DNA of 64,000 nt, taken from the NCBI RefSeq assembly GCF_900182985.1, contig NZ_FXUY01000001.1, forward strand, positions 2,914,001 to 2,978,000. The letters are read 5' to 3'. The position numbers and the translations under genes were made by a program. The notes beneath the pieces were generated by a model. It ran no database searches. It was given only the letters and a program-made list of their open reading frames with translations, and had not been told where the DNA came from. Shown piece after piece: positions 20,404 to 42,368 of the stretch; position 1 is the first letter of the stretch; each line of letters starts with the position of its first letter. The stretch is from Pseudomonas helmanticensis. GTDB taxonomy: Bacteria; Pseudomonadota; Gammaproteobacteria; Pseudomonadales; Pseudomonadaceae.

Positions 20404-20904
20404 CTACCCCTGATTTTCGATTTCTCGTGCCGCTAGTCGCAGGAGCCCCTCTAGCGCGGCCTTCACCGTTTGTCGGCGGACTTCATCACGGTTGCCGGGG
20501 AAGTGCTGAACCTCACTGGTGACCGTTTCGCCAACACCCCAGGCCAGCCACACAGTGCCCACCGGTTTGTTCGGTGAACCACCGTCCGGCCCGGCCACCC
20601 CGCTGACCGCCACGGCAAATCGCGCCAGGCTTTTGTCCTGCGCGCCACGCACCATTGCCTCGACCACCTCGGCACTGACCGCGCCGACCGTCTCGAACAA
20701 CTCGACCGGCACATTCAGTTGCAGGGTTTTCTGCCGGTTGGAGTACGTCACGTAACCGGCCTCGAACCACGCCGAGCTGCCGGGAATCCGCGTGATCGCC
20801 TCGGCGATACCGCCGCCGGTGCACGACTCGGCGGTGGTGACGTGGGCATTGAGCACTTGCAGGCGTCGGCCAAGTTCAGCAGCCAATTGGGTGATCTCTT
20901 TCAC
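20404..20904 (-). CDS. pncC: CinA-family nicotinamide-nucleotide amidase (PncC)
   Basis: 166 residues from a GTG ([15 protein letters not shown]) with GGAG eight bases upstream; the longer frame lacks a site. Motifs are [46 protein letters not shown] and [13 protein letters not shown], typical of the C-terminal CinA domain that deamidates NMN. It lacks the COG1058 N-terminal domain, as is normal for the gene beside recA in gamma-proteobacteria. It marks the left boundary of the tailocin island. Confidence 0.93.
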
Positions 20905-20971
20905 GGCGCACTCCGGATCGTGTGGGATGCCTTCACCGTACACGAGCCGGTTGCGCTTTCAATACACAGAG

Positions 20972-21490
20972 TCATTCAAAATGTTCGGGGGCCAACGCTC
21001 TGACATAGGCCTGACACGCCTGCAGCGCGATCAATCCGCGGTCGCCGCTGTCGGTGATGGTGATAATTCGTTGAGCATGCGCCGGGTCAAGTCGGGCACG
21101 TACGGTTGCATGATCCACGCCGCCGGGGCCGGCGGTGGCTGGCACGTTGCAGCCTGGGGCAACGTCGCTGGCGTCGAGTAGGACTGACAGGCGCACATCA
21201 GCAGTGGCAAGACGATCGCGCAGGCGATCCTGATCTCGTTGGGCATCGCTCAGCGCTCGATAGTGGGTTTGTTCACTGGCGGCGAGCCGTTGCTCCAGCG
21301 CCAGGCGTTTATCCTGTTCGGCCTGTTGGGCTGAGGCAGCGGCAAAATTCTGTTGATTGAGGACTTCGGCGTTTAACCGAGCCTGCTCGGCGAGTTGCCG
21401 GCCGTAACGCCAGTCCTGCAACTGCCAGGCCACGGCAAAAGCTCCCAGCGCCAACAACAAGATGCCGATCATTCGCCAGGGGATTGGCAT
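20972..21490 (-). CDS. Rz-type inner-membrane spanin
   Basis: 172 residues from ATG 21490 (MPIPWRMIGILLLALGAFAVAW). One N-terminal transmembrane helix (7-23) is followed by a long coiled-coil region (QLAEQARLNAEVLNQQNFAAASAQQAEQDKRLALEQRLAASEQ...), the usual i-spanin plan. With Rz1 it would fuse inner and outer membranes after the endolysin acts. It overlaps the endolysin 3' end by 22 bases and carries Rz1 wholly inside it in another frame. It is the last gene of the tailocin transcript. Confidence 0.85.
   Translation of the reverse strand: MPIPWRMIGILLLALGAFAVAWQLQDWRYGRQLAEQARLNAEVLNQQNFAAASAQQAEQDKRLALEQRLAASEQTHYRALSDAQRDQDRLRDRLATADVRLSVLLDASDVAPGCNVPATAGPGGVDHATVRARLDPAHAQRIITITDSGDRGLIALQACQAYVRALAPEHFE
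21031..21246 (-). CDS. Rz1-type outer-membrane spanin lipoprotein, nested in Rz
   Basis: 71 residues read in a different frame within Rz. It has a short charged start, a hydrophobic stretch (CAIVLPLLMCAC) with a probable lipobox MCAC (lipidated Cys20), then a small proline-rich mature part (TPATLPQ...QPPPAPAAW). This is the classic embedded o-spanin seen in lambda. The lipobox is not perfect (Cys at -2), so the exact processing site is uncertain. Confidence 0.75.
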   Translation of the reverse strand: MPNEIRIACAIVLPLLMCACQSYSTPATLPQAATCQPPPAPAAWIMQPYVPDLTRRMLNELSPSPTAATAD

Positions 21491-22035
21491 AACACCGCCC
21501 TCGCCCGCGCCCAGATTTCCAGGCGATCCTGCAAGCCGTTCAACCCGCCGTTGATGCGCCGGGTGATGGTGTTGAACTGGTCGCGATCGGCCAGTTCGTT
21601 CAAACCGTTCTGTTCCCAGAACCACGCGGCGGATTCGGCTGCCCATTGCGGCTGTTCGAGCAGTTCGGGCAACGACAACAGCCGCTCATCGCCAAACAGG
21701 CCAACGCTGCATTGCCGATAATTGCTACGGCCAGTGATTTGTATCAGCCCGCGTCCGCGGTACTTTTGCCCGTCGCCATCAGCCTCTGGGGTATTGCCCA
21801 GACGCAGCGCCAATGTGCCGGTGTCGTATTTGCTCAGGTATTGGTTGTTGCCCAGCTCGCGCACATAACGCAGTTGCCCCGACTCGTGGCCGACCTGCGC
21901 CAGAAACGCAGCCATGCGTTTGGGCGTGTCGATACGACGCCGCGTCATGGCGGCGTTGAGCGCAGAAACAAAAACGCCCGCTTGGGAGCGGGCGTTGGGC
22001 ATGATGTCGATAAGGTTATTTTCAGTTATTTGCAT
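21469..22035 (-). CDS. Tailocin endolysin, glycoside hydrolase family 19
   Basis: 188 residues. The GH19 (chitinase-like lysozyme) signature is visible as MAAFLAQVGHESGQLRYVRELG (Glu of HESG is the likely acid) and YRGRGLIQITGRSNYRQ, with PELLEQPQWAAESAAWFWEQNGLN following. It would cut peptidoglycan glycan strands to release tail particles. GGAGG lies ten bases before the ATG at 22035. A strong palindrome (AACGCCCGC ... GCGGGCGTT, 21973-21996) lies inside codons ~13-22. A second start at the in-frame ATG just before it (MPNARSQAGV) is possible. No signal peptide is present, so it depends on the distant holin. Confidence 0.9.
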   Translation of the reverse strand: MQITENNLIDIMPNARSQAGVFVSALNAAMTRRRIDTPKRMAAFLAQVGHESGQLRYVRELGNNQYLSKYDTGTLALRLGNTPEADGDGQKYRGRGLIQITGRSNYRQCSVGLFGDERLLSLPELLEQPQWAAESAAWFWEQNGLNELADRDQFNTITRRINGGLNGLQDRLEIWARARAVLCQSPGE

Positions 22036-22071
22036 GATGCGTAATCCTCCCTGGATACTCCCCCGATTGAA

Positions 22072-22287
22072 TCACGGCTGCCGGCCAATGCCTGCCAGCC
22101 ATTTATTTGCCAGAGTTTTCAGGGTGCTGCCCGCTGCCGCTTCAGGTGCTTCGTCCAATGGCAGCACTTGCCCACCCGATACCAGCCACGACTGATACGC
22201 GACCCAGTCACGATTGGTCGGATCCTGTGGGATGAATGCCGAATCCTCGATGCGCAATACGCCGCAAGGAGTCAGTTGATAGGTCAT
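22072..22287 (-). CDS. Short tail-fibre accessory/chaperone-like protein of cassette 5
   Basis: 71 residues (MTYQLTPCGVLRIEDSAFIPQDPTNRDWVAYQSWLVSGG...). AGGAGTGAACTC precedes the ATG. The pattern IPxDxxNRDWxxYxxWLxxGGxxLP is typical of the N-terminal part of small phage-tail proteins and chaperones (XkdW/DUF-type) next to fibre genes. It follows fibre 5 as the other chaperones follow their fibres, but is less than half their length. Probably a chaperone remnant or a distinct short accessory protein. Confidence 0.6.
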   Translation of the reverse strand: MTYQLTPCGVLRIEDSAFIPQDPTNRDWVAYQSWLVSGGQVLPLDEAPEAAAGSTLKTLANKWLAGIGRQP

Positions 22288-22297
22288 GAGTTCACTC

Positions 22298-23500
22298 CTA
22301 AATTTCAGCGTCCGCTGTCCATTCAATCTGCAACCCGTTACCAGGCGCGCTGCTGGGTGACGTCACAGTGCCAATCGCGAAGCTCCGCTCGGTCGTACTT
22401 TGCACGGTAGTCCCCGTGCAAACCGCTCCCGCCGAATAGTTCCAGATCTGATTACTGGCATTGGCAGGGCAATACAACACAACAGTAGGCTGCACTCTCT
22501 TCTGCACCTGCATGTAGACGACCATTCCATATTGAGGGCTGGCGGCTGCCGCAGACTGGGTAAACGAGACGATGCAAGTACCGACGCCATTGTTCGCCCG
22601 GACCACTGAACTGTTGGCAAAGGACTTCTCGAAATAACGCAGACATAGCATCAGCTCCTCGGCCGGAGGACGGTATTCGAAAGGCGTGGAAACCGGTCCT
22701 TCCTCCAACTGAACTTGTGCCAGGTCAACCGTCTGCAAAACATTGAGCGGCAGGTCGAAAGCCAGTCTCAGAAAATTGTTCACCCCGAGCATTTTCCCTG
22801 CGATGACGGGTACCTGAAACGTCGCCGAGTACTTTGTCCAGGCCGTGTTCAACTGAAAAACGTCGACCACTTTCACTACAGGTTCCGAGCCGCTGACGCC
22901 GAAATATTGCCCCGCCGTCACCTGCAGCGCCCGTGGCGCATCGGAACGTGCCCAAAAGGTGACAGTGGCGGTCTTCCCGGCCAGGCTCCGAACCGACTCA
23001 ATAGCCTGGGAAATTTTATGCTCCGTTGCACCAACGCCCGCCGTGGTCTGCTGCCAGCGCAGGAAATACGCCGGCTCACCGGCCACCTCGGTCTGCCCCG
23101 GAACGAAGCTCTGCCGGCTGATCGCTACAGCCGCATTACTGTTCCAGTCACAGCGAAACCGATCAGCCACGTAACCACCAATATTCGGCCCCGGATTGGT
23201 CGTCCCGCGTTGCCAGATATCGAATCCACCGTTGATCAGCAAATTCTTGCGGTACACCTGCACCGGGAATTGCTGCAACGGGTCCGGCTTCGACAACAGC
23301 CGAATCGCCTGCGCGAGTTGATTGGTTTGTGCTTCATCCGGAGTCAAACCGGCGGCAGTAATTGCGCTGAGAATTTCTTCGGTAACGCTGTTGCCCCAAA
23401 TGGCCGGGATCAGTGAACCGGGCTTGCCCGCAATCGGGTCTTCATCGACAAACTTGCCGTTCTCCAGGCCGGAGCCGGGGACGCTTTTCGGGTAATCCAC
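22298..23500 (-). CDS. Contractile-tailocin fibre 5, carbohydrate-binding-like C-terminus
   Basis: 400 residues. It opens with the anchor shared by five fibres here (MDYPKSVPGSGLENGKFVDE...GSLIPAIWGNSVTEEIL, residues 1-~60). A different body follows: NLLINGGFDIWQRGTT (residues ~86-100) begins a jelly-roll, carbohydrate-binding-like domain also seen in phage fibres, with TVTFWARSDAPRALQVTAGQYFG and QLEEGPVSTPFEYRPPAEELMLCLRYFEKS near residue 290. The C-terminal ~100 residues are probably the receptor tip. A strong hairpin (23529-23556) precedes the start. Confidence 0.85.
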   Translation of the reverse strand: MDYPKSVPGSGLENGKFVDEDPIAGKPGSLIPAIWGNSVTEEILSAITAAGLTPDEAQTNQLAQAIRLLSKPDPLQQFPVQVYRKNLLINGGFDIWQRGTTNPGPNIGGYVADRFRCDWNSNAAVAISRQSFVPGQTEVAGEPAYFLRWQQTTAGVGATEHKISQAIESVRSLAGKTATVTFWARSDAPRALQVTAGQYFGVSGSEPVVKVVDVFQLNTAWTKYSATFQVPVIAGKMLGVNNFLRLAFDLPLNVLQTVDLAQVQLEEGPVSTPFEYRPPAEELMLCLRYFEKSFANSSVVRANNGVGTCIVSFTQSAAAASPQYGMVVYMQVQKRVQPTVVLYCPANASNQIWNYSAGAVCTGTTVQSTTERSFAIGTVTSPSSAPGNGLQIEWTADAEI

Positions 23501-23592
23501 TTTCAGCTCCTTTCAAGTCGCATGAAACGCCAACGCCCGCAAAGGCGGGCGTTGGCAAAAAATGAATGAGGCACTCTGTTCAACTGGCGACA

Positions 23593-24030
23593 TCAAGCCC
23601 CAGCCAGCATTCGCATCAGCCAGCCCGGCGCTAAAGGTCGACTCGTGTCTGCGGGAAACTCCGTGCTCGCCGGCCAGTCACGCAGTTCCTGGCGATAGTC
23701 AAGAAGCTCTTGGTGGTCCTCGATACTCAGACTCAACGGCCTGCCCGCGGCCTCCTCATCCCGATCACGGTCCACCAGCCATTGGCTGGCCAACAATTGC
23801 TCGTCGCGCCATTTTCGCGCCAGGTCTGAAAGCTCGGAAACCGACAAGGGGGCGGCATCGATGAGCACCGGCAGCCCCTCAGCATCATGGCTACGCACTT
23901 TTCCAGGTGCAGGGTTGCCGATCACGGCGATGAAACGCTCCTCAGTGATCGGTACGGCATCGCTCGGCATGCTTGGATTAATGCCGGACAGGTACACACA
24001 GCCTGTCGACTGGCTATAAAAACGACTCAT
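23593..24030 (-). CDS. Tail-fibre assembly chaperone of cassette 4
   Basis: 145 residues (MSRFYSQSTGCVYLSGINPSMPSDAVPITEERF...). It starts with a short strand region and has a helical SELSDLARKWRDEQLLASQWLVDRDRDEE middle and the late LDYRQELRDWPAS...FP segment typical of phage tail assembly chaperones. It lies 10 bases after fibre 4, so it is translated from the same message and is probably dedicated to folding that fibre's tip. Confidence 0.78.
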   Translation of the reverse strand: MSRFYSQSTGCVYLSGINPSMPSDAVPITEERFIAVIGNPAPGKVRSHDAEGLPVLIDAAPLSVSELSDLARKWRDEQLLASQWLVDRDRDEEAAGRPLSLSIEDHQELLDYRQELRDWPASTEFPADTSRPLAPGWLMRMLAGA

Positions 24031-24039
24031 GGTTTTTCC

Positions 24040-24744
24040 TCAGCGCCCGAACGCGATTGCACAAAAGCCGCAAGGCAACAGTTCCGAGTACAACGTAAAC
24101 CCGGTCTGCGTTTTCGCCCCCAGCGAAACACTGCCAGGCGCGCTGCCATTCAATGTGGAGGGGAATACCGCCAGGCAGGTATTGGGAAACGCGAGGGCGA
24201 AGCTTGAATAAGCACCCTGAATCCCCAGTGTCGAGATTCCAACCCATTGAATGATGAAACCACCCAGCCAAGTAGGAAAAACGATGTAACCGTTGGTGGT
24301 CAGACTGGCAGAAAAACCAAAGCGCAGCGTTTTCGGCGTTACGATCGTGGTGTTATCCGCACCACCATCGGTTTGCGCCTGAGTGGCCGTCTTCGCCACC
24401 CCGGCAATGCTTTCGCTCGCCTGCACCACGCGTTTGGCAATCGCTTGAAAAACTCGCAACGGCGTCATGCGCTTGACGTTGTCAGTGCCTTGTTCCGCGT
24501 CTTGAACACTGGCCACCGGCACCACGCTTTGGGTGATTTTCTGTTCGATGGCGGACTTCAGTTGAGCGTTGTCCTGCTCATCCGCTGCGAGGCCAGCCGA
24601 CTGAATCACATTCAGCACTTCCTCAGTGACAGCGTTGCCCCACTGCGCAGGAATCAAAGACCCGATGGCCCCGGTCAACGGGTTTTCGTCGACAAACCTG
24701 CCATTGACCAAGCCCGTGCCGGGCAAACTCTTTGGATAATCCAT
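24040..24744 (-). CDS. Contractile-tailocin fibre 4, gp53-like C-terminus
   Basis: 234 residues from MDYPKSLPGTGLVNGRFVDE; AAGGAAAAAG lies upstream of the ATG. The shared anchor (1-~60) is followed by a helical linker (QDAEQGTDNVKRMTPLRVFQAIAKRVVQASESIAGVAKTATQAQTDGGADNTTIVTPKTLR). The compact tip YIVFPTWLGGFIIQWVGIST...NTCLAVFPSTLNG resembles the gp53-like C-terminal fibre domain. It is the shortest of the five fibres. Confidence 0.85.
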   Translation of the reverse strand: MDYPKSLPGTGLVNGRFVDENPLTGAIGSLIPAQWGNAVTEEVLNVIQSAGLAADEQDNAQLKSAIEQKITQSVVPVASVQDAEQGTDNVKRMTPLRVFQAIAKRVVQASESIAGVAKTATQAQTDGGADNTTIVTPKTLRFGFSASLTTNGYIVFPTWLGGFIIQWVGISTLGIQGAYSSFALAFPNTCLAVFPSTLNGSAPGSVSLGAKTQTGFTLYSELLPCGFCAIAFGR

Positions 24745-24767
24745 TTCACTTTTTCCTTGTGTAGAAA

Positions 24768-25334
24768 TCAGCCGTTCACGGCAGCGCCGGGGACAATCGG
24801 CCACGTGATTTCGTCAGGAAACCCGCTCTGCTTTTCGAGGCGATTGAGCTCGACGCTGTAGAGTTTCCATTCGAGCAATTGCAGTTGTTCTTCGTGGCTG
24901 GCATCGCCGATGTCTTCGGCGTACTGAAGAGGTGCGATGCGCAAAACGGCTTCGCGCAGCAACACATCACGCTTGGCGAGAGACTGTTGGCTGACGCTCG
25001 ACAAACGAGCCTGCTCATCCAGCACCCAGGCGTTGTCGCGCCAGACATGGAGCTCGCCGGGCCAAGGCTGTGACGTAAGGGTTTCGGGCAACGCCCCCAG
25101 TTCGGTCCAGATCTGTTGGGCGCCCCCGTCCTTGCGATAAACCACACCGCGGCGATCGATCGCTTCACGGGGTACGCCATTGATCAGCGCCCAGCTACGA
25201 CCGGCTTCAGGCTCAGGCAACTCAAACGACAGCTCAATTGCGTTGGCGGGAAGCTGAATGCCGATTCCGGGCGTGACAGGAAACTCGACGGGGCCGGACA
25301 GAGCGCCCGAGCCATCGATCAGATAATTGAACAT
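24768..25334 (-). CDS. Tail-fibre assembly chaperone of cassette 3
   Basis: 188 residues from ATG 25334 (MFNYLIDGSGALSGPVEFPVTPG), with GAGGTG just upstream. The C-terminal half is the Tfa-type pattern: helical LREAVLRIAPLQYAEDIGDASHEEQLQLLEWKLYSVELNRLEKQSGFPDEITWPIVP. Such proteins cap or fold the fibre tip. It lies 8 bases after the fibre 3 stop. The longer upstream frame overlaps fibre 3 and is not used. Confidence 0.85.
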   Translation of the reverse strand: MFNYLIDGSGALSGPVEFPVTPGIGIQLPANAIELSFELPEPEAGRSWALINGVPREAIDRRGVVYRKDGGAQQIWTELGALPETLTSQPWPGELHVWRDNAWVLDEQARLSSVSQQSLAKRDVLLREAVLRIAPLQYAEDIGDASHEEQLQLLEWKLYSVELNRLEKQSGFPDEITWPIVPGAAVNG

Positions 25335-25341
25335 GGACACC

Positions 25342-26421
25342 TCAGATAAGTTTGATTCGACCCGGATAAGCAATATTTCGAGGACGCGTGATACCACCAT
25401 GGTTCAGCAAATCAGCGTCAGTGATTGGCGTAACCGGCGCTGCAGGAGTGATGTATTTGACGGTGGAGCCCGCGTAATCGGCGTATTCGCCCATATCGAA
25501 ACCCAGTTGGGCCTTCTGCGTACTGATGTGTGTCGCGAACAGAATATTGTCGCCAATGCCGTTGTCGCCCTGAACTAAAGAGCCTTTTTGCCAAGACCCC
25601 GGTGCACGCCCGGTATCGACCAAACGGCCTTCGGCCAGTACGCGCAAAAATTCGCCACGGGCTTCTGGCAGTCGAAACGTCGCGGCGCCATCTCCAAGCG
25701 TCCACGCGCCGCCCCGATCGGCTTCAGAACGCAACATGCCCGACTGCTGTGCGTGATCCCAGAGCCATGGCCATTCCGAGCGATTGAGTAAGGAACCATT
25801 CAGCACTGCATAGCCACCGGGCATTACAGCCAGAGTGGTTTCAAAGGCTACGTAGCCGAGCGAAGCTCCGTCCAGACGACCGATCGGCCACCAGTTGCCC
25901 GCTGTATCGCTGCGCAAATGCCACCAGTCACCTGCCCCCATCAATACGAAAAACGGATAACCCGAAACATTCAGGTGGGTGTGAAACCTGATCAAGTCGC
26001 CGCCTGAACTTTTCACGACGAGGCGATTACCGCTGTTATCGACACGTCGCACAATGACGTCACGCACGCCCAGGCTGGTATTGGCTGGCGGCAGACTGAC
26101 GCTCAGTGCCCCGGCCCCGGCATCGATCAGAACCAGGCCCAACTCATCCATGGTCAGAGACCTGGAGGTGCCAACCCGAGTAATGACCGAACGCATCGGA
26201 CTGGAATTACCAATAATCGACTGAATCGCCTTGTACAACTGGCCGGTGTCCGCTTCGGCAGCGACCAACCCGGCACCAGTAATCACACTCAGAATCTCCT
26301 GAGTGACACTGTTGCCCCACACCGCCGGAATCAAAGAACCCGGCGTGCCCGCCACCGGGTTTTCATCGACGAAACGGCCATCGACCAGGCCGACGCTGGG
26401 GACGCTTTTTGGATAATCCAT
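25342..26421 (-). CDS. Contractile-tailocin fibre 3, tail-collar domain
   Basis: 359 residues from MDYPKSVPSVGLVDGRFVDE, with AAGGAA upstream. After the shared anchor a beta-rich mid-section (GTSRSLTMDELGLVLIDAGAGALSVSLP...) leads to a tail-collar-like domain, recognisable as VMPGGYAVLNGSLLNRSEWPWLWDHAQQSG...WTLGDGAATFRLPEARGEFLRV (residues ~225-290). The C-terminal part ends ITRPRNIAYPGRIKLI. A terminator-like hairpin (26507-26535) lies between the preceding chaperone and this gene. Confidence 0.88.
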   Translation of the reverse strand: MDYPKSVPSVGLVDGRFVDENPVAGTPGSLIPAVWGNSVTQEILSVITGAGLVAAEADTGQLYKAIQSIIGNSSPMRSVITRVGTSRSLTMDELGLVLIDAGAGALSVSLPPANTSLGVRDVIVRRVDNSGNRLVVKSSGGDLIRFHTHLNVSGYPFFVLMGAGDWWHLRSDTAGNWWPIGRLDGASLGYVAFETTLAVMPGGYAVLNGSLLNRSEWPWLWDHAQQSGMLRSEADRGGAWTLGDGAATFRLPEARGEFLRVLAEGRLVDTGRAPGSWQKGSLVQGDNGIGDNILFATHISTQKAQLGFDMGEYADYAGSTVKYITPAAPVTPITDADLLNHGGITRPRNIAYPGRIKLI

Positions 26422-26560
26422 AGGTTGTTCGTTCCTTTGAAATGACAAATGACCTACGTCGACACAGCGTTTCAAGCGTGTCCGTCTCCGGTCGGTTTTC
26501 TGAAAATAAAAAGCCCACGTTGAAGTGGGCTTGGGTGAAGCGGAAGGAAGGCTTTTTGGC

Positions 26561-27076
26561 TTAGCCGGAAACACCGCTGGCCAGCTCACGGATCGCGACC
26601 AAAGCCTCGTCACCTGCACTGCGAACCAGATCCATTTTGCCCTTGGCAGCCTGCGCGCGAATCTGCGCCTTGGCCTTCAGGCGCAGAGTACGCAGCGTCA
26701 GCAAGTGATCGGTGAGTTGCTCAGCCTTGCTCAGGATCTGCTCGGCAGCCTGTTTGGCCGTGCGACCTTTGGCTACCCAGGCAGCGACCGACAGCGGCAC
26801 TTCCTTTTTCGGGTAACCGGCGTCTTGATAAGCCTGCGCGTCAGCGGCAGCCTGAGCGTATTCCATGGCTTTGAGCGGATCGCCAGCCAACACTGTGCGG
26901 GCGCTGTCAGCGGCGGCGTCGATTTTTGCGCACAAGCGTTCAGTCTCCTGCACGTCCAGCGCCGCCTGTTTATCGCCGTTCACTACCCATTTATCACCAT
27001 CCCAATCGTGGGCGGCAGAGGGTTGGGGAAGACGCATTTCGCCGTCGAACTGATGAAGCTCCTGAATAACGATCAT
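26561..27076 (-). CDS. Tail-fibre assembly/accessory protein of cassette 2
   Basis: 171 residues from ATG 27076 (MIVIQELHQFDGEMRLPQPSAAHDWDGDKW). The N-terminal strand region contains HDWDGDKWVVNGDK, common to tail-fibre assembly proteins. The rest is almost entirely helical and Ala/Lys-rich. Its start overlaps the fibre 2 stop by four bases, so coupling to that fibre is certain from layout; the chaperone role is inferred. Confidence 0.75.
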   Translation of the reverse strand: MIVIQELHQFDGEMRLPQPSAAHDWDGDKWVVNGDKQAALDVQETERLCAKIDAAADSARTVLAGDPLKAMEYAQAAADAQAYQDAGYPKKEVPLSVAAWVAKGRTAKQAAEQILSKAEQLTDHLLTLRTLRLKAKAQIRAQAAKGKMDLVRSAGDEALVAIRELASGVSG

Positions 27077-28230
27077 CGAATAAGCTCCCACGACAGTTGG
27101 ACGTTCACGGCGTCGGCAAAGTTGATTGCAATACCAACGCTGTAGTCGGTGATTGGATGAGTCTTGATGCCCATGCTCAGCAACAACTCATCACTCTCGG
27201 CGTTCGACTGGCCAAGGTTGTGCTCTGCCTGATAGCACTGCCACAGCGAGCGCAAATTGGCATGGTCGAAACTGGCGGTCAGCGTTGCAACCGTCACGTC
27301 GTTAACGATGTTGTTGGTGAACAACACACAAGGGGAAATCGTTGCGGGATTCCAGCCCCCGGGGTTGTTGGAGCTGCCGGCAATTACGGGCGACAGGAAG
27401 CAATAGTTGCCCCCCACCCATCCGGTTGATGGAAACGCGACCGACGTCACCGCCGTCGACGACGGTGTCGGGTTGCCGGCAACCAATCGTGCAGAACGTG
27501 CATGGGGATCCAGTGGCAGGAAAATTGCGCCCGTCCCGTTGACGGTCTGGGTCCAGGTCAAACGGGCACGGTTGTAAATGGTTCGCACAGTGGGTACCGA
27601 CCCCGGTGCGCCGGTAATTACCCAGGCCAGGCACATGTCCAGAGCTGTTGACTGGAATCCGCCACCGGCGGCGCCGTTGACTGTTCCTTTCAACGATTCG
27701 GGCGTCACGTCATGGATGTTGCCGCGCTGCACATAGAACGTCAGCGCACCGCCAGAGACTTGCGCGCGCAGAAAATAATGACTGCTGGGCAACAGATCAG
27801 CACTGCTCCAGGCGGACGTCACAAAAGTGCGCGAACGACCCAATTGGCCACTCACGACTTCCTGACCCAGGCTGATAAACGTGCCCGCCGCAATTGCAAC
27901 CCTGCCACCGCTGGTGGATGCCGCAGCCGGGCTGACCGTCAGCCGGCCATCGGCAGTGGCAACGGTCGGCAGCGGCAATGCCACAAGAGGCAACGCCAGA
28001 TCCTGATTCCAGCCCTTGGCCGTCACCGACTGAATCGCCTGCAACAACTGATCGTATTTCTTCTCGTCCGGGGTCAGCCCACCGGCATTGATCACGTTGA
28101 GAATTTCCAGCGTAACCCCGTTACCCCATTCCGCCGGAATCAGCGATCCCGGGGTTCCGGTCATCGGGTTTTCATCAACAAATTTCCCATTCACCAATCC
28201 GGCGCTGGGCACACTGTTTGGATAATCCAC
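27073..28230 (-). CDS. Contractile-tailocin fibre 2
   Basis: 385 residues. The shared anchor (MDYPNSVPSAGLVNGKFVDENPMTGTPGSLIP) spans residues 1-~60 and a QSVTAKGWNQDLALPLVALP linker follows. The long beta-rich body (AAASTSGGRVAIAAGTFISLGQEVVSGQLGRSRTFVTSAWSSADLLPSSHYFLRAQV...) is unlike the other four fibres, so it would give a different receptor specificity. I do not recognise a named tip domain. Confidence 0.85.
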   Translation of the reverse strand: MDYPNSVPSAGLVNGKFVDENPMTGTPGSLIPAEWGNGVTLEILNVINAGGLTPDEKKYDQLLQAIQSVTAKGWNQDLALPLVALPLPTVATADGRLTVSPAAASTSGGRVAIAAGTFISLGQEVVSGQLGRSRTFVTSAWSSADLLPSSHYFLRAQVSGGALTFYVQRGNIHDVTPESLKGTVNGAAGGGFQSTALDMCLAWVITGAPGSVPTVRTIYNRARLTWTQTVNGTGAIFLPLDPHARSARLVAGNPTPSSTAVTSVAFPSTGWVGGNYCFLSPVIAGSSNNPGGWNPATISPCVLFTNNIVNDVTVATLTASFDHANLRSLWQCYQAEHNLGQSNAESDELLLSMGIKTHPITDYSVGIAINFADAVNVQLSWELIR

Positions 28231-28301
28231 GCGGGGACCTCCCGTTATTCTGGGTGATTGTTCAAGAAGCTGTTTTTGCAGGCTTCAAGTCAGAAAAGGC
28301 A

Positions 28302-28721
28302 TCAAACCGGCAACACTGGCCAGTCCACGCTTTGCGGATAACCTGGCTGCCTGTCGATTTTGTTCAGCGCCAGTTTGTAGGTGGCAAAAGCCTTGAACCG
28401 CTGCATGTCATCGGCATCCAGCAACCCTGCGATGTAGGCGTCGGCCATACCGACGGTTTGCTGGTCTGCTTCGGCCAACAACTCATCCCGCCGTGCCAGG
28501 GCCGATGCTCGCTGTTCGCTTTCGACCAGCAACGATGCGTTCGGCAATGCATGTTTGGTGACCTTGCCATCGGTCCATTTCCAGATGCCGTCGCGCTCCT
28601 CGATCGTGCGCAGGAACAGCTCATCGGAGATCTCTATAGCAGTGGCGGGCATCTGCGTGTGAATCGACGAGTCATAGCGCCCAAGCAGTTCGCGCTGGGC
28701 ATCAAAATCAATGTATTTCAT
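28302..28721 (-). CDS. Tail-fibre assembly chaperone of cassette 1
   Basis: 139 residues from MKYIDFDAQRELLGRYDSSIH. The N-terminal domain contains DELFLRTIEERDGIWKWTDGKVTKHA. A helical linker follows and the C-terminal end RFKAFATYKLALNKIDRQPGYPQSVDWPVLPV is the Tfa-like tail also seen in the chaperones at 53391 and 53862. It lies 17 bases after fibre 1 and should act on it. Confidence 0.85.
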   Translation of the reverse strand: MKYIDFDAQRELLGRYDSSIHTQMPATAIEISDELFLRTIEERDGIWKWTDGKVTKHALPNASLLVESEQRASALARRDELLAEADQQTVGMADAYIAGLLDADDMQRFKAFATYKLALNKIDRQPGYPQSVDWPVLPV

Positions 28722-28738
28722 TTCATTCACCGTTGATT

Positions 28739-29620
28739 TCAGTAGCCCAGGGCAAACCAGTTCCAGCCGCCAGGGTCAGCATTGGAGAAGCGCTGAAACT
28801 GGCTTGGCGAAAGTCTGTACAGGGAGAAGCGCAGATCCGCGAATCCCGGCGAGATATCGCCACCCGAGAGAAAAAGCACGCTTTTTGGAAAGGCAATCGG
28901 GTAGGTAATGGTTTCGCTGAGTGCTCCGCCCGTGGCCAGTCCCCACTGCAGGATCAAGCCACTGGGTAAACGCTGATAGCCGCCTGCAGTGTTCAATGAA
29001 GCGGTAAACGCGGGCGAGTACTTGAGTGCACCGTCACCGGAGTCCAGACCCCAGCCTCCGCCGAGTAGAAGTCGGCGAAACGTAACGTAGCTACCACCGA
29101 CAAATGACAACGTGTTATCCGGCACACTACCGGCGGCGGTGACCAGACTTTCGCCACTTCTGACTTTTACGGTCAAGCCACCGGAGCTTGCCATCAGAGA
29201 CACCAACCCTCCGGCAGGCACAGTCGACCACTGCGGCAATGTTGCAGTGCTGGGGCCAGTAAAGATCGACAGTTTGCCGACGTCAGCGACGGTCATCGAA
29301 ACCTCACCGACGTAATTGGTCTGCCCCGCCAGATTGCCGAGTGCGCGCTGTACAAACTCGGTGGTCGCAACTTTCTGGCTGACATCGAACTGGGCCGGCG
29401 TTTCAAACAGCTTTGTGCCGCGAATGGCCGCCAGCAACTGCGTGTTCAAGCCTTCGGTCGGCTCGAGCCCGGCGGCCTTGATGACCGTCAACACCTCTTC
29501 GGTAAGGGCGTTGCCCCACTCTGCTGGAATCAGCGATCCGGGCGTCCCGGTAACAGGATTTTCATCGACAAAACGACTGTTGACCAAACCGACACCGGGC
29601 ATGCTTTTCGGATAATCCAT
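28739..29620 (-). CDS. Contractile-tailocin fibre 1, gp53-like C-terminus
   Basis: 293 residues. The first ~60 are the shared anchor (MDYPKSMPGVGLVNSRFVDENPVTG). Then come FDVSQKVATTEFVQRALGNL (a short linker motif found in many fibres), a repetitive beta domain with NYVGEVSMTVADVGKLSIFTGPS, and a tip beginning GYQRLPSGLILQWGLATGG...ITYPIAFPKSVLFLSGG, the gp53-like C-terminal type. It follows the gp48-like baseplate gene and is the first fibre of the array, the usual position of the single R-type fibre. Confidence 0.87.
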   Translation of the reverse strand: MDYPKSMPGVGLVNSRFVDENPVTGTPGSLIPAEWGNALTEEVLTVIKAAGLEPTEGLNTQLLAAIRGTKLFETPAQFDVSQKVATTEFVQRALGNLAGQTNYVGEVSMTVADVGKLSIFTGPSTATLPQWSTVPAGGLVSLMASSGGLTVKVRSGESLVTAAGSVPDNTLSFVGGSYVTFRRLLLGGGWGLDSGDGALKYSPAFTASLNTAGGYQRLPSGLILQWGLATGGALSETITYPIAFPKSVLFLSGGDISPGFADLRFSLYRLSPSQFQRFSNADPGGWNWFALGY

Positions 29621-29632
29621 CCGGCTTACTCC

Positions 29633-30232
29633 CTAGTCATAATTGATGTGCACCTTGGTATGCGCCGGCGCACTGCGGTGAATCAGGCACTCCAGCGCCG
29701 AACCCGGGTTCACGCCGAAGCGCTCGCCCCAGTAGCTCGCGCCGTAACGCCGGCCGAGCAGCAGGCGCCCGCCGGTGTTGAGCGTCCACATGAACTGCGC
29801 TTCCCACGTGCCCCAGTGCGCCGAACCAAAACGCGAACGGCCCATGCGCGGTGCTTCGAGTTCGGTGATGGTGGCGTTGGGATAACCCTGGCTTTTGGCG
29901 ATATCGAGGTAGTAACCGACGGCCTGGCTGCCGACCGCGAGCAGGCGTCGGCGTACGGCGAGGCGGCGGTCGTCGAACAGCGGTGTGGCGCCCAGGCACG
30001 GATCGGGCAGTTCCATCACCCGTTCCCAGTCCGGCACCAGTTCGCTGACGCCGGCCGGGTCCATCTCGTTGAGCAGGTCGGCGGCGCGGGCGTCGAGGCG
30101 CGCCAGTTCGACGGCGACGCCTTGCAGCACTTCCTCAAGTTCGGGGACGCGCTCCGGATCCCACGCCGGGCCGCTCGGCAGCAGCGCACGCAGTTGCGTC
30201 TGGTATTGCGCAGCGGATCTGATCACGCCCAT
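29633..30232 (-). CDS. Mu gp48/YmfQ (DUF2313) baseplate protein
   Basis: 199 residues from ATG 30232 (MGVIRSAAQYQTQLRALLPSGPAW); GGAGG is six bases upstream. Motifs RALLPSGPAWDPE, LNEMDPAGVSELVPDWERVMELPD and the ending HRSAPAHTKVHINYD are typical of the YmfQ/DUF2313 family, a baseplate part between gpJ-type wedge proteins and the fibre. It overlaps the gp47-like stop by ten bases. Confidence 0.9.
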   Translation of the reverse strand: MGVIRSAAQYQTQLRALLPSGPAWDPERVPELEEVLQGVAVELARLDARAADLLNEMDPAGVSELVPDWERVMELPDPCLGATPLFDDRRLAVRRRLLAVGSQAVGYYLDIAKSQGYPNATITELEAPRMGRSRFGSAHWGTWEAQFMWTLNTGGRLLLGRRYGASYWGERFGVNPGSALECLIHRSAPAHTKVHINYD

Positions 30233-31263
30233 ACGCAACCTCCGAAGGTCAACAGTTCGCTGTCATCGGCAGCGACGTTGCCGGTCGGCGAATTGAGCAC
30301 GTGATCGGTTTCACCGGCGGCGCTGCTAATCGCTTCACGAATATGGCTGATCAACAGGTTCTGACCGAGGTCGGCTTCGCGGTTGTGCAGGTCGCGCAAC
30401 TGGGTTTCGACCGCCGCGCGCACGGCAGAGGTGTCCGGCGTCAGCTTCAGGTTGTAGGTCACCGGCACCTGCACCGGAGGTAGTACGTGGACCTCGGCGG
30501 TGACCGGGCGCAGCGGTTCGATGTGTGCCTGGACTTCCGCCAGTTGCTCGGCGTTGGGCACCGGTTGCGGATCGTCGTCGCGCATGATGTAGAGGCTGAC
30601 CGTGCCCGGCCCGAGCAAACCGCCGCGACACCATGCGCGCGTCACGCCTGGCAGTTCCAATGCCCAGGTCTCGTAATCGCTGGCCGCACCGCCATGCGGA
30701 ATTACGCGATAGGAACGGATCACCCGCGAACGCAGCGACTCCAGGCTTTCCAGGGCGACGCCGCCACTCAGGCCCGGCTCGGTAACGACGAAGCTGGTGC
30801 CGACGATACCGGCAATCGGTTGCACCGGAGTGAGCGTCAGACCGGCATCGGCATTGCCCAGGCTGCCAGCGTCGAGCGCGGCGATGGTGGTGCTGTTGCT
30901 GCCATTGGTCGTGGTGCGTGCCTTGATGACTTTATACGTACGGCCGTCGTTGGTTTGCAGCAACGTATCGGCGTCGAGCACCGCACCGGCGGTGGCGGTA
31001 AAACTCACCGTGCCGGTGGCCGCTTGGGCCGGTTTGCGCGGCTGGTTCAGACGCAGTGCAGCGATGCGTTCCAGGGTCGATTCGTCGGCCTTGTCCGGCA
31101 GGATCTGCTCGGCAATCCAGTCGAGGTAACCGTACAAGCCATACGCGGCGCCGCTGAGCGTTCGGGCCAGCACTTGCGCATCGGACTGGCGCAGCGAATC
31201 GCCGGCCAGGTCGCTTTGGGTGCGCTTGATCAGCACCGGCAGCGAAGGGGTTTCAAACGGCAT
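30223..31263 (-). CDS. Baseplate J-family wedge protein (Mu gp47)
   Basis: 346 residues. The N-terminus PSLPVLIKRTQSDLAGD, the hydrophobic ARTLSGAAYGLYGYLDWIAEQILPDKADESTLERIA and the later SGGVALESLESLRSRVIRSYRVIPHGGAASDYETWAL form the baseplate J signature. The protein would form baseplate wedges that open to release the sheath lock. It overlaps gp46 by 11 bases and gp48 by 10. Confidence 0.94.
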   Translation of the reverse strand: MPFETPSLPVLIKRTQSDLAGDSLRQSDAQVLARTLSGAAYGLYGYLDWIAEQILPDKADESTLERIAALRLNQPRKPAQAATGTVSFTATAGAVLDADTLLQTNDGRTYKVIKARTTTNGSNSTTIAALDAGSLGNADAGLTLTPVQPIAGIVGTSFVVTEPGLSGGVALESLESLRSRVIRSYRVIPHGGAASDYETWALELPGVTRAWCRGGLLGPGTVSLYIMRDDDPQPVPNAEQLAEVQAHIEPLRPVTAEVHVLPPVQVPVTYNLKLTPDTSAVRAAVETQLRDLHNREADLGQNLLISHIREAISSAAGETDHVLNSPTGNVAADDSELLTFGGCVWA

Positions 31264-31654
31264 AGATCACCTGCCAACTGTTATCGGGGTTGATGTCCAG
31301 GCGTTCGCCGTCGGCCAGGGTCAGGACCGTGCGCAGGTTCAGGCGCTGAGCGTCGAGGCGTTCGCTGATGATGTCGATGGCGCTGCAATGGCCGTCATCG
31401 ATCAGCCATTGCAAGGCTTCGCGGGCATAGAATTCGGCGTCCATCTGGGTCTGTCGGGTCAGCTTGACCCGGCGTAACAGCCACAGCCGCGAGCCGATGC
31501 GATCGTCGGCGACGGTGGGGAAACTGTCGCCCCACCAGCCAAAGCGCTCGTCGTCATCGAGGGCGTCGTCATCGGCGGCGCGGCGCCAGGTAAACAGACT
31601 GATGAGCACGGCGCGGGTCAGCGCGGCGTGAAGGTTCGGGCTGATAAGCATCAT
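31253..31654 (-). CDS. Phage GP46-family baseplate protein (Mu gp46)
   Basis: 133 residues. ERFGWWGDSFPTVADDRIGSRLWLLRRVKLTRQTQMDAEFYAREALQWLIDDG is the Mu gp46 family core and NPDNSWQVIYAV closes it. Its role is like the gp25-type wedge lysozyme-fold proteins. The start is MM; either ATG may be used. It overlaps gp45 by four bases. Confidence 0.92.
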   Translation of the reverse strand: MMLISPNLHAALTRAVLISLFTWRRAADDDALDDDERFGWWGDSFPTVADDRIGSRLWLLRRVKLTRQTQMDAEFYAREALQWLIDDGHCSAIDIISERLDAQRLNLRTVLTLADGERLDINPDNSWQVIYAV

Positions 31655-32160: not shown

Positions 32161-32191
32161 GCTTGGTTCCTGTAAGAAACGGGCCGACGTC

Positions 32192-32268
32192 AAAAGATCG
32201 CAGCCTGCGGCAGCTCCTACACAGGATCGGCGTACACCTGTAGGAGCTGCCGAAGGCTGCGATCTTTT
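32192..32268. repeat. Palindromic repeat inside the tailocin operon
   Basis: AAAAGATCGCAGCCTGCGGC and its near reverse complement GCCGAAGGCTGCGATCTTTT, same family as 4841-4922. It occupies the gp44-gp45 junction, only a few bases after the gp44 stop. Confidence 0.88.
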
Positions 32269-32274
32269 CAGGGC

Positions 32275-33321: not shown

Positions 33322-33324
33322 GGT

Positions 33325-36235: not shown

Positions 36236-36662
36236 CACTGCACCTGCTGCATCGCATTGATCCGTTGCGCGTGCTCCAGCGATTCGCGGAGCACATCCAG
36301 TGGCCTGGCCATCATCTGTTCGGGGTCAACCTTCCAGAACCAGGCCAGGTCATAGGCGACTGCGATCAGGTCGGTGATGGCTCCGACGCCGCACTCATGA
36401 AAAAACTCGCAACAGCCCAGCTCAGCGCGTTGAGGTCAGCCAGATCCAACTGGTTGACCGACGACGGCGGAATGCCGGCGCACACGGCGATGTATTTGGC
36501 CGCCACGTCCATGTCGAGGCTGACTTCTTCGCTCTTGTCGATCTTGTACGGCAGCGCCTTGATCGCTCGCACTTCCTGCACCGTTGGACGGCGCAGGACG
36601 AGTTCGGTCAGGGGCTCGCCGTGAGCTTCGATCGCAACCTGAAGCTTCACGGCGCCGCTCAT
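36235..36662 (-). CDS. Tail assembly chaperone, -1 frameshift (E-E' type) form
   Basis: If the ribosome slips -1 on T TTT TTC (36399-36405, minus strand) the product continues as HECGVGAITDLIAVAYDLAWFWKVDPEQMMARPLDVLRESLEHAQRINAMQQVQ. The AVAYDLAWFWKVDPEQM part is the GpE family and has no start codon of its own. It ends at 36235 in TGATG with the tape measure start. P2, Mu and many other phages make the same two-protein set here. The sequence supports it strongly; the slip itself is inferred. Confidence 0.88.
36366..36662 (-). CDS. Tail assembly chaperone, short (0-frame) form
   Basis: 98 residues (MSGAVKLQVAIEAHGEPLTELVLRRPTVQEVRAIKALPYK...). The pattern EPLTELVLRRPTVQEVRAIKALP is that of Mu gp41/P2 E-type tail chaperones. 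It ends ...ASFFMSAASEPSPT after the slippery site. Four-base overlap with the tube gene upstream. Confidence 0.88.
   Translation of the reverse strand: MSGAVKLQVAIEAHGEPLTELVLRRPTVQEVRAIKALPYKIDKSEEVSLDMDVAAKYIAVCAGIPPSSVNQLDLADLNALSWAVASFFMSAASEPSPT
36399..36405 (-). promoter_or_regulatory. -1 ribosomal frameshift heptamer T TTT TTC
   Basis: In the 0 frame the codons are AGT TTT TTC, a perfect X XXY YYZ heptamer. The -1 frame joins the short chaperone to the GpE-like extension. Confidence 0.88.
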
Positions 36663-37006
36663 TGCCAGGTCCCCTTGATGCCTTCGAATTTCAGTTCGAT
36701 GGTGGCGTCATCGCCCTTGGAGACTGGCTCTTCAACCAGATAGGCGCCGGCCAGCACGTAGACTTTGCCGTTGCTGAATTCGCAGGTGACGGTGATGTCG
36801 GTGCCTTCGATCAGCTTCTTCAGCGGGAAGTCGGCGGTGTGCAGCGCAGTCACTTTGAACGACGGTGCGATATCGGTTTCCTTGTAGAAACCCGGCACGA
36901 CGGTTTCGCGTTTGACGGCCATCAGCGGGGCTTCGCAGCCGCCATTGATAGTCAGTTGTGCGCCGTCGACCTTGACGTAGCAGGTGCCTGCAATCAGTTG
37001 ACCCAT
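36659..37006 (-). CDS. Contractile-tailocin tail tube protein
   Basis: 115 residues from ATG 37006 (MGQLIAGTCYVKVDGAQLTINGG). CYVKVDGAQLTINGGCEAPL, REKETVVPGFYKE-like text (KRETVVPGFYKE) and TDITVTCEFSNGKVYVLAGAYL identify the Mu-type tube family. It forms the inner tube inside the sheath. A terminator-like hairpin lies between the sheath stop and this start. Confidence 0.92.
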   Translation of the reverse strand: MGQLIAGTCYVKVDGAQLTINGGCEAPLMAVKRETVVPGFYKETDIAPSFKVTALHTADFPLKKLIEGTDITVTCEFSNGKVYVLAGAYLVEEPVSKGDDATIELKFEGIKGTWQ

Positions 37007-37024
37007 GGTGTTACTCCCTTGAAT

Positions 37025-37048
37025 AAAAAAGCCCACGCGAGGTGGGCT
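37025..37048 (-). terminator. Terminator-like hairpin between sheath and tube genes
   Basis: In the minus-strand transcript AGCCCAC-CTCGC-GTGGGCT is followed by a U run. It lies inside a same-strand operon, so it may be leaky or an attenuator. Confidence 0.85.
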
Positions 37049-37073
37049 GAATGCTGGTGGTCAAACGCGCTGA

Positions 37074-38570
37074 TCAAGCCGCGTCGTCGTACTGCAGACG
37101 GAATTGGTTGAGCAGTGCGAACACGCGCAGACCGTTGATGTAATCCGGCGGGAACAGCACGTTGACGCGGCTCGGATCCTGCACGTCGCGCTCGACGATC
37201 AGGTGCTCGGCGAACAGCTCGGCATTCTCCACGTGGCCTTCCAGTTCGAGCTTGGCGTACTGGGCGATCAGCTCACCACGGATGGTCGCCGGGGTGACGA
37301 TCGGCTGGCCGGCGCCGAAGCGGGTGCCGTCGGACGCCAGTTTGTGCCGGCCGTATTTGCTGGTGATCACGCTTTGCAGACGGCGCACGATGAACGCCGA
37401 CTGGTGCATGGTTTCGCTGTCCAGGTAGGAGTTGTCGGCCTGCCCGTAAGCGTTTTTCTGGTAGGTGGTAATCGAGCGCTGGATACGCACGTAACCGCCT
37501 TCGTAGTAGGCGGTGGCGATGCCGTAGTTGAGCAGCGACTGACGCTCGGTCAGGGTGAAGCGCTCGCTCGCCGGCGCCGGATCAACGCCCGGCAGGCTGC
37601 CGCTTTGGGTCGGACGGCTGGCGTCGGCGGAGATGAACACGGCGGTGCGTGCAGCCAGTGCGGCAGCCTGTACCCAGAACGGTTGCGGTACGCCCGGTTC
37701 CAGCGCCTGAATGGTCATGTGCTGGTCGTTGCGTGCCTGGCCGGCAGCAACCAGAGTACCGACGGTGCCGCGCTTGGCGCTGTAGACGTGACCGAACAGT
37801 TGCTTGGCCCACGACCAACGACCGGTGCTGTCATCCATGACGGCTTGCCAGGTGTTGAGGGTCGACAGATCGGACCATGGCAGTGCGATGAATTCGAACG
37901 GTTCATCACCCAGTGCGGCGATCGCTTCAACCTGATCCGGCACACCGGCGCCGCCGGTCATGGCGGTGATTGCAGCAGTCAGGCCGGCCGGGGTTTCTTC
38001 GCCGTTGCTCTTGCCCAGGCGATTGAATTGCAGGCTGATGTCGTTGCCGCTGTCGCCAGTCCATTTGGCGTTCAGGGTGACCACACCTTCAGCAGCGGCA
38101 GCGCTGACCGGCAGGTCGGCCGTGGCGTTGATTTTCTGCGCCAGTGCGGTGGCGGCTTGGGCTGCGGTGCCACCGTTGACCACGGTGGCTTGCACACGCA
38201 CGCCACCGACGTAGAGATTGAGCAGACCGGCCTGGGTCGCGGTGCCGGTGAGGGTCAACACGCCTTTGGCGACGGCGCCTTCAGCGTTGTGCAGCGGCAG
38301 GCACCAGATCTCGCCGATCGGGTCGGCCTTGCGGAAGGTCTCGTACATCGAGGCGAGCATCGAGCCTTGGCCGCCGATGCTTTTCGCCAGCGCAACGCTG
38401 GACACCAACACCAGTTTGCCGACTTCAGTCGGTGCGATGTTGTCGTTGACCTGAGCCACGATCAAACGGCGCATGGTCGAACTCGCGCTATTGGCGGCCG
38501 AGTTGTCCATTTCGGCATAGAACAGCGGTACACGAATGTCCGCGGGGATGTTGCTGAATCCGATCGCCAT
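37074..38570 (-). CDS. Contractile-tailocin tail sheath protein
   Basis: 498 residues. The N-terminus MAIGFSNIPADIRVPLFYAEMDNSAANS and PTQSGSLPGVDPAPASERFTLTERQSLLNYGIATAYYEGGYVRIQRSITTYQKN are typical of the Mu gpL-type sheath family. The middle holds a variable surface domain (~residues 100-200). Sheath contraction drives the tube through the target envelope. One base overlap with the DUF2635 gene. Confidence 0.95.
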   Translation of the reverse strand: MAIGFSNIPADIRVPLFYAEMDNSAANSASSTMRRLIVAQVNDNIAPTEVGKLVLVSSVALAKSIGGQGSMLASMYETFRKADPIGEIWCLPLHNAEGAVAKGVLTLTGTATQAGLLNLYVGGVRVQATVVNGGTAAQAATALAQKINATADLPVSAAAAEGVVTLNAKWTGDSGNDISLQFNRLGKSNGEETPAGLTAAITAMTGGAGVPDQVEAIAALGDEPFEFIALPWSDLSTLNTWQAVMDDSTGRWSWAKQLFGHVYSAKRGTVGTLVAAGQARNDQHMTIQALEPGVPQPFWVQAAALAARTAVFISADASRPTQSGSLPGVDPAPASERFTLTERQSLLNYGIATAYYEGGYVRIQRSITTYQKNAYGQADNSYLDSETMHQSAFIVRRLQSVITSKYGRHKLASDGTRFGAGQPIVTPATIRGELIAQYAKLELEGHVENAELFAEHLIVERDVQDPSRVNVLFPPDYINGLRVFALLNQFRLQYDDAA

Positions 38571-39333: not shown

Positions 39334-39428
39334 GAGGAAGTACCGAGTGGGGGCGGTCGCAGGTCAGCGCCTGTACTCAACCCGATTTAACGAGGAACCC
39401 CAGCCGCAGTTTTCAGTCTGGGTTTTGC

Positions 39429-42282: not shown

Positions 42283-42368
42283 ATGTACTCCAGGATTGTT
42301 AGAAAATTGCAGAACGCGGCAACGACCGGACAAAAGACATACGTGTCCGCCTATCAAGCAGGGGACTG

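Follow-up and report, generated by a model that had tools for sequence, protein, structure and literature searches.

The R-pyocins of Pseudomonas aeruginosa are contractile bacteriocins whose specificity lies with a fibre and its chaperone, one of each. As far as the published accounts could be consulted, some tailocin loci carry multiple fibre genes, with one P. chlororaphis tailocin having three fibre genes and three distinct complexes (PMC10598620, PMC12090994), and six fibre and assembly genes had been the maximum per R-tailocin locus before up to 13 were reported in Xenorhabdus (PMC13280938). Here we describe a tail-fibre array of Pseudomonas helmanticensis, located at positions 22,072 to 29,620 of a 64,000-nucleotide stretch (RefSeq assembly GCF_900182985.1, contig NZ_FXUY01000001.1, forward strand positions 2,914,001 to 2,978,000), which was analysed as a whole and is referred to as the window. 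It holds five fibre cassettes where the R-pyocin has one fibre and one chaperone, or ten fibre and assembly genes if all five partner genes are counted. Judged from its sequence and that of its relatives, it is probably the specificity array of a single Mu/SfV-like R-tailocin, in which the co-encoded fibres would compete with each other and the set would change by replacement of whole cassettes.

The five fibre open reading frames (ORFs) were all confirmed as open; they lie on the minus strand between the genes for the gpI-type baseplate wedge protein (gpI) and the endolysin, and each is followed by a small gene (Table 1). Over their first 72 residues the five fibres can be aligned gap-free; 34 columns are invariant, mean column identity is 75%, and the other four are 60-65% identical to fibre 1. 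This bears out the common N-terminal anchor on which the first-pass annotation had made its multi-fibre idea depend. At the DNA level the anchors form direct repeats of 203 nt, with four copies 65-71% identical to the one taken as reference. Pairwise blastp of the whole fibres gave values such as 70% identity over 67 residues for fibres 1 and 4 (E 2e-28), which excludes chance likeness. A profile of the five anchors, searched against the 6.53 Mb genome at E <= 0.001, hit five sites, each of them in the array. The same profile also matched fibres of Pam3 (E 0.01) and, in a chance-like way, one ribosomal protein (E 0.09). Among 323 anchors from 97 related arrays, 27 positions are at least 95% conserved, and a 26-sequence anchor profile searched against the sequences of solved structures at E <= 0.1 matched nothing but two entries for tail fibre S of phage Mu (E 0.002 over 37 residues).

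Behind this anchor the fibres diverge. The tips had been described as completely different, which holds for most of them; fibres 1 and 4, however, share a gp53-like C-terminal domain, so that not all five are unrelated. Of the tip types proposed in the same description, the gp53-like one stands, with gp53-like_C above the Pfam cut-off in both fibres, whereas the Collar match of fibre 3 (22.2 vs 24 bits, next to matches to PHROG tail-collar families) and the CBM_4_9 match of fibre 5 (20.7 vs 25.9) fall below it; a Pfam search gave no match for fibre 2. The jelly-roll of fibre 5 resembles CBM4 and CBM22, with a best Foldseek E value of 3e-7 and TM-scores by target of 0.38-0.64 for the first four matches, in an AlphaFold model which is poor overall (mean predicted local distance difference test score, pLDDT, of 48) and has usable confidence only near residues 124-270. 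This domain would fit sugar recognition, as expected of a lipopolysaccharide receptor. The model of fibre 2 (mean pLDDT 46) was too poor for a structure search. With regard to the partners, the claim that each fibre has its own chaperone holds on Pfam evidence for chaperones 1 and 3 (Caudo_TAP) and 4 (Phage_tail_APC), which pass the cut-offs, and to a lesser extent for the second, which matches a tail-fibre-assembly PHROG (E 2e-8) but nothing in Pfam, and for the fifth, which is placed by position. NCBIfam models gave no match for any of the ten fibre and partner proteins at E <= 0.001. The gap between fibre and partner gene is near overlap (median -1 nt with the earliest start taken), and with start codons read from the sequence, the ORFs starting at 26619 and 24804 are over-extended.

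Of 298 Pseudomonas genomes, 102 have the anchor at E <= 1e-5 (some of them weakly) and 90 have gpI at E <= 1e-30, while in a class-wide sample the anchor was present in four of 229 genomes including that of the window, the other three having one match each. Two sets of relatives were compiled: a gpI-similarity set, consisting of the best 80 of 104 relatives found by one pattern scan, of which 75 loci were kept and five without an endolysin border were dropped, and a set of 40 arrays, from 40 of the 49 genomes (excluding that of the window) showing at least two anchors. As the latter is preselected for at least two anchors, cassette counts are given for the gpI-similarity set, where the 75 loci with both borders hold one (18 loci), two (5), three (16), four (16), five (18) or six cassettes (2), and hence three to six in 52 of the 75. 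Three or more cassettes are present in 50 of the 51 loci with a gpI at least 88% identical to that of the window, and 18 of the 24 loci with a less similar gpI have one cassette. Carriers of at least three cassettes include P. koreensis (six in L092, five in L097), P. baetica (four in L098) and P. brassicacearum (three in L119). From these counts, the array in the window is a typical large member of a clade-wide trait, and the earlier description of a novel system was too strong, since multi-fibre R-tailocins have been published and arrays of three to six cassettes are common in this clade. Altogether 122 loci with gpI were available, of which 20 have an array identical to another, and 97 of the other 102 hold the endolysin border; these 97 non-identical arrays contain 323 fibres in 59 architectures.

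Clustering of the tips gave 30 families (13 of them singletons), with 283 of the 323 fibres in 11 common types, and these occupy slots in the order [H/B1/F1/L]-C-A-E-[Bx/Fx]-[D/G]-endolysin. The first-pass annotation had proposed comparing cassette number and order among related genomes. Cassette number varies from one to six, and the order is nearly fixed: it is kept in 448 of 451 pairs and in 68 of the 71 arrays with at least two common types, the exceptions being L053, L126 and L127. All six slots are filled in two arrays (L075 and L092), and the window, with B1-C-A-Fx-D, is without slot E. The labels B1/Bx and F1/Fx use position, and slot-1 order is therefore partly set by definition, although both splits are recovered exactly when the tips are clustered at 60% identity. 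With B and F left unsplit, 407 of 445 pairs are in the majority order (shuffle mean 59%, maximum 65%), and counting each of the 59 distinct architectures once leaves 206 of 234 pairs (shuffle maximum 72%). Several types exclude each other, as D and G never occur together (expected 8.4), nor do Bx and Fx (expected 7.0) or F1 and C (expected 6.2), whereas mutual exclusion of B1, F1 and H is either by definition or non-significant (p 0.32-0.41); as the species are related, the pair counts and Fisher tests are not independent, and the latter ignore kinship.

The cassettes are inherited whole, and close pairs of arrays show replacement of blocks. Among 280 anchors of the ten commonest types, 268 have their closest counterpart from a different array in the same slot type when neighbours of at least 90% identity are omitted (273 of 280 when they are included), compared with a mean of 0.16 and a maximum of 0.26 after label permutation. 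Anchors thus stay with their slot type, and a shuffling of tips on anchors is not supported. Between-slot anchor identity is 0.688 within an array and 0.685 between arrays, so the anchors are neither homogenised nor exchanged. Concerted evolution of the anchors was rejected on these values, and a recent tandem duplication of one fibre was rejected because the anchor copies are only 65-71% identical to the reference at the DNA level and their nearest kin is the same slot in other species. The partner genes largely follow their fibres: partner cluster k2 occurs only with A (63 cassettes), k4 only with G (22) and k7 only with B1 (8/8), k3 with C (49) and three others, and k5 with 20 of the 30 D cassettes, while k1 is common to Bx, E, Fx, H and a few more. 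Fibre 4 of the window (Fx) has partner k6, otherwise typical of F1, as is the case in one other Fx array. Block replacement is seen in L074, which has 97.5% DNA identity to the window up to the first fibre and 93.7% again from the first codons of fibre 5. In between, L074 carries H-A-E-Bx in place of B1-C-A-Fx, and type A, common to both, is only 71% identical where aligned. L075 is 92% identical to the window and colinear with it through cassettes 1-3, and different thereafter.

The ratio of non-synonymous to synonymous substitutions (dN/dS; Nei-Gojobori, pairs with dS 0.05-1) had medians of 0.07-0.14 for the fibres of ten tested slot types, 0.10-0.31 for the partner genes and 0.074 for gpI, with few pairs for Fx (6), H (9) and B1 (13), and just six of the 323 fibres are shorter than 205 aa. 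Purifying selection acts on the fibres of each of these ten types, as would be expected if all were in use. The equivalence of the five anchors, stated at the outset, is supported. Decay of the cassettes was rejected on the dN/dS medians. One alternative is that all but one or two of the cassettes are silent and serve as a reservoir for recombination; the internal terminator-like hairpin described below and the many cassette combinations (59 architectures in 97 arrays) would be in line with this, yet we regard it as unlikely, since the low dN/dS, which extends to the partner genes, and the small number of short fibres argue against a decaying or purely silent store, as do anchors which have diverged rather than been homogenised and tips which stay with their anchor type. 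Still less probable is a division of labour within one particle, with fibres at different baseplate positions or acting in sequence. Different tips, slot-specific partners and the near-fixed order could be expected from it, but all anchors keep the same conserved residues, and with one to six cassettes in related loci no fixed fibre set is required.

Alternative fibres selected by switching at the DNA level, as in the phage Mu G segment or with Ein in carotovoricin, had also been a possible reading of the array. The five cassettes are complete and co-oriented, their anchor repeats are direct and diverged, and the only inverted repeat of at least 18 nt is one 19-nt pair (84%) inside coding sequence; the array thus has no inverted repeats with oppositely oriented fibre ends. 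A search for a site-specific serine invertase (PF00239 recombinases) gave no match in the genome at E <= 0.001, with the control scoring in 10 of 14 genomes, and none of the 11 PF00589 matches in the genome is within the window. On these grounds inversion switching was rejected, and phase-variable fibres are a very improbable explanation despite the weak similarity of the anchor to Mu gpS, the Mu-like tail in the annotation of the relative EU982300 and the fibre 'switching' mentioned for P. chlororaphis in the part of a review available (PMC12961389).

We therefore return to the reading of a specificity array with competing fibres, for which the locus has several complete fibre genes and chaperones, two of the five chaperones being weakly supported, with one baseplate. 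The late operon would be transcribed as a single unit following SOS induction, the fibre trimer of each cassette would be folded with that cassette's own chaperone, and the baseplate's six fibre positions would be contested by the trimers. One lysate would contain several specificities, either on mixed particles or on a population of particles each bearing a single type; the three fibre genes of the P. chlororaphis tailocin, with their three distinct complexes (PMC12090994), speak for this reading. New specificities would be gained by homologous replacement of whole cassettes or cassette blocks with the order kept, in a proposed evolution of the set which involves neither DNA inversion nor tip swapping on anchors. 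Several points weigh against this. The chaperone role is weakly supported for partners 2 and 5, the fifth being assigned by position, there is no cassette type common to all arrays, and the hairpin between cassettes 2 and 3 makes their equal expression uncertain. Docking at the Mu fibre site is something we infer, because the anchor match to the gpS N-terminus is weak. In addition, the P. chlororaphis system is called a tail fibre 'switching' mechanism in the review cited above (PMC12961389), and its particles are described, in the section available, as carrying one of several fibre types, which favours single-type particles (PMC13280938).

The hairpin in question, which has the stem and U tract of an intrinsic terminator, is found after slot C in 40 of 49 arrays and after H in six of eight, but after only two of 223 cassettes of the other common types (one of 65 A and one of 47 Bx; none of 30 D, 29 E, 22 G, 12 Fx, 10 F1 and 8 B1), with a rate of <=0.01 in shuffled spacers. 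The rare types M (3), L (2), I (2) and V, Z, P and Q (1 each) also have it. In the 41 of 49 C-slot spacers which are at least 100 nt long before A or E, 99.4% of stem cells are paired and six cells are changed on both sides, a combination reached in none of 500 shuffles. Cassettes 3-5 and the endolysin gene thus lie behind a terminator-like site. The median Shine-Dalgarno duplex energies of the types before the hairpin are -8.9 (H), -10.2 (B1), -11.7 (F1) and -8.8 (C), and those of the later types -5.8 (A), -6.0 (E), -8.5 (Bx), -7.4 (Fx), -5.4 (D) and -5.8 (G), although the rare first-slot type L (three members, -8.3) breaks the separation from Bx. The hairpin and the stronger sites before it suggest, post hoc, a graded dose.

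This leads to a special form of the competing-fibre reading, with overlapping odds, in which cassette order would set the dose, making proximal fibres major and distal ones minor. We consider it a tentative possibility. It would account for the distribution and two-sided changes of the C-slot hairpin and for slots 1 and 2 having strong ribosome sites in front of the terminator with mostly weaker ones behind, but the Shine-Dalgarno comparison was made after the fact and is broken by type L, the hairpin also follows the rare types, and no such hairpin follows the ten F1 cassettes, none of which is found in an array with C. A general consensus scan over 20900-39500 gave no excess of terminator-like sites (24 vs 19.4 in shuffles, standard deviation 4.8), the endolysin, which must be made, is likewise downstream of the hairpin, and replacement in place is a simpler cause of a fixed order. 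Somewhat more doubtful is the further step that slots are exclusive because operon position, via the internal terminator and ribosome-site strength, fixes the ratios of the fibres; if true, the clade would adjust the ratio of the specificities that it maintains instead of selecting a single one. Promoter-like sites over the same interval were not in excess of shuffles, and none of the three detected is a minus-strand site between cassettes.

Other potential RNA elements were seen along the operon. The fibre 3 leader (26419-26510, minus strand), directly after the terminator-like hairpin, may form a second hairpin with arms that vary by species and an uncertain register; it was not recovered by RNAalifold in the stretch from the terminator to fibre 3, a scan of alignment columns did not settle on one register, and it remains a suspicion. 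A hairpin at 21973-21996 (minus strand) spans about codons 14-22 of the endolysin gene, near its start, and in 97 sequences the top codon has an average share of 0.94 at six codons there, compared with 0.64 at 89 other four- or six-fold codons (Mann-Whitney p 1e-4), so the hairpin itself appears to be selected and could possibly act as a brake on lysis. Between the sheath and tube genes there is another terminator-like hairpin (37030-37048, minus strand), which is odd as both genes are needed in bulk. Among the 56 loci that extend 8 kb or more upstream of gpI, the matching 400-nt interval gave 31 terminator-like matches, and of the 12 matches listed, 11 (those of the window and ten relatives) have nearly the same stem. 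Searches for known RNA families over 20900-31000 gave three matches, all far below the gathering score.

The source genome is a Pseudomonas of 6.53 Mb in two contigs, and the element occupies the mutS-cinA-recA hotspot (mutS at 55729, plus strand; cinA at 20404 and recA at 19265, minus strand), these genes being identified by translation and cinA-recA also being annotated so in EU982300. The interval from mutS to cinA-recA contains lysis genes and the five fibre cassettes together with two tail clusters, one lambda-like (~39.4-52.6 kb) and one contractile (~30-39 kb). PHROG scans of window proteins name a sheath, tube, tape measure, baseplate hub and baseplate wedge, in agreement with the single contractile tailocin placed in front of the array by the first-pass annotation, and also an endolysin, a spanin and a CI-like repressor, so that the contractile tail, lysis genes and repressor of an R-type tailocin are within one locus. 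No capsid, terminase or integrase was named among the best PHROG matches of the 40 window proteins scanned (cut-offs 0.1 to 1e-10), the remaining ORFs, mostly small, lying outside the scan. The 194-aa protein at 38749-39333 beside the sheath matches PHROG 209, a family of 163 positions named portal protein, but is more likely a Mu gp37-like tail protein. Minor 'virion structural' matches were listed for fibres 2, 4 and 5, the repressor has a weak match, through its helix-turn-helix, to a 'DNA transposition' PHROG, and the only match of the presumed holin (52903-53250) is a PHROG of unknown function. The contractile tail is called Mu-like in the annotation of EU982300, and that of the same element SfV-like in the accessible text of Mavrodi 2009 (PMC2647930).

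Table 1. The fibre array with its borders and selected tail genes, listed in the direction of transcription; positions are those of the window.
Feature	Position	Strand	Details
Contractile tail sheath	37074..38570	-	PHROG 165, E 2e-197
Tail tube	36659..37009	-	PHROG 185
gpJ-type baseplate wedge protein	30223..31263	-	PHROG 6
gpI-type baseplate wedge protein, upstream array border	29633..30238	-	PHROG 203, E 1e-61
Fibre 1, slot type B1, 293 aa	28739..29620	-	Anchor and gp53-like C-terminal tip (PF21882, 48.9 bits); start 29620 ATG
Chaperone 1, tail fibre assembly, Caudo_TAP	28302..28730	-	PF02413, 33.6 bits; GTG start, or ATG a few codons on
Fibre 2, slot type C, 385 aa	27073..28230	-	Start 28230 GTG; tip matches PHROG 17588 (function unknown)
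Chaperone 2	26561..27076	-	Overlaps fibre 2 stop; PHROG 8983 (unknown), weaker tail-fibre-assembly match
Terminator-like hairpin and U tract, between cassettes 2 and 3	26511..26532	-	Intrinsic-terminator type
Fibre 3, slot type A, 359 aa	25342..26421	-	Start 26421 ATG; tail-collar-like tip
Chaperone 3, Caudo_TAP	24768..25334	-	Pfam, 70.2 bits
Fibre 4, slot type Fx, 234 aa	24040..24744	-	Start 24744 ATG; gp53-like C-terminal tip, 34.3 bits
Chaperone 4, Phage_tail_APC	23593..24030	-	Pfam, 39 bits
Fibre 5, slot type D, 400 aa	22298..23500	-	Start 23500 GTG; CBM4-like jelly-roll at about residues 124-270
Chaperone 5 candidate, 71 aa	22072..22287	-	By position and linkage; cluster k5
Endolysin, downstream array border	21469..22035	-	Intragenic terminator-like hairpin at 21996-21973

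Outside the array, two fibres of the lambda-like cluster (39429-40397 and 41158-42288, minus strand) have a common anchor (51% over 138 aa), and both tail machines of this strain thus have more than one fibre. Two small overlapping genes in the same cluster (40488-40844 and 40841-41284, minus strand) match positions 117-227 and 1-104 of PHROG 24907, respectively, and look like a single gene in two pieces. Near the repressor there are two further tail-fibre-assembly-like genes (53391-53816 and 53862-54266, minus strand), with no fibre-like ORF of at least 110 aa found between them and the repressor.

As a clade, these loci form a natural series of one to six complete fibres, in defined slots, on an otherwise closely related machine, and close relatives differing by cassette blocks offer direct tests of the specificities per particle population, of fibre mixing and of a ratio set by position. 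One closely related described element is prophage 01 (ssh6) of P. fluorescens Q8r1-96 (EU982300; PMC2647930), with the same backbone, a gpI 88% identical and the same site. Its array has three cassettes, C-A-Bx, sequence-identical to L055 and L119, compared with five in the window, and the available text of Mavrodi 2009 names tail fibre and collar genes, is silent on co-existing fibres and likens the element to F-type pyocins (PMC2647930). P. chlororaphis 30-84 (Dorosky 2017, 2018) is similar as a rhizosphere Pseudomonas with an R-tailocin, several fibre genes and particles reported with different fibres, but has three fibre genes (PMC12090994) against five here and up to six in relatives, and slot order, exclusivity and an internal hairpin do not feature in the accounts of it in PMC12090994, PMC13280938 and PMC12961389, as far as these were accessible. 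The phage Mu S-U and S'-U' pairs of the G segment resemble the cassettes in combining fibre and assembly genes (PMC4406740, in part) and in the gpS N-terminus, but DNA inversion expresses one pair at a time, whereas the window has co-oriented, complete cassettes in a genome without a serine recombinase match. Carotovoricin and xenorhabdicin also have several fibre genes or segments per tailocin locus, with up to 13 fibre and assembly genes in Xenorhabdus; from the sections available, carotovoricin fibre loci are invertible by Ein (present in 172/365), and the extra Xenorhabdus fibres are without a conserved N-terminus, while every fibre in the window has the full anchor (PMC13195805, PMC13280938). 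Ordered fibre slots were not found in the tailocin literature searched, for which partial texts were used, and a description in Dorosky 2018 or Ghequire 2015 is possible. Within that literature, the fixed exclusive slots, the replacement at cassette level and the conserved internal hairpin appear in no paper, and the array itself is an unusually large version of the known multi-fibre kind of R-tailocin.

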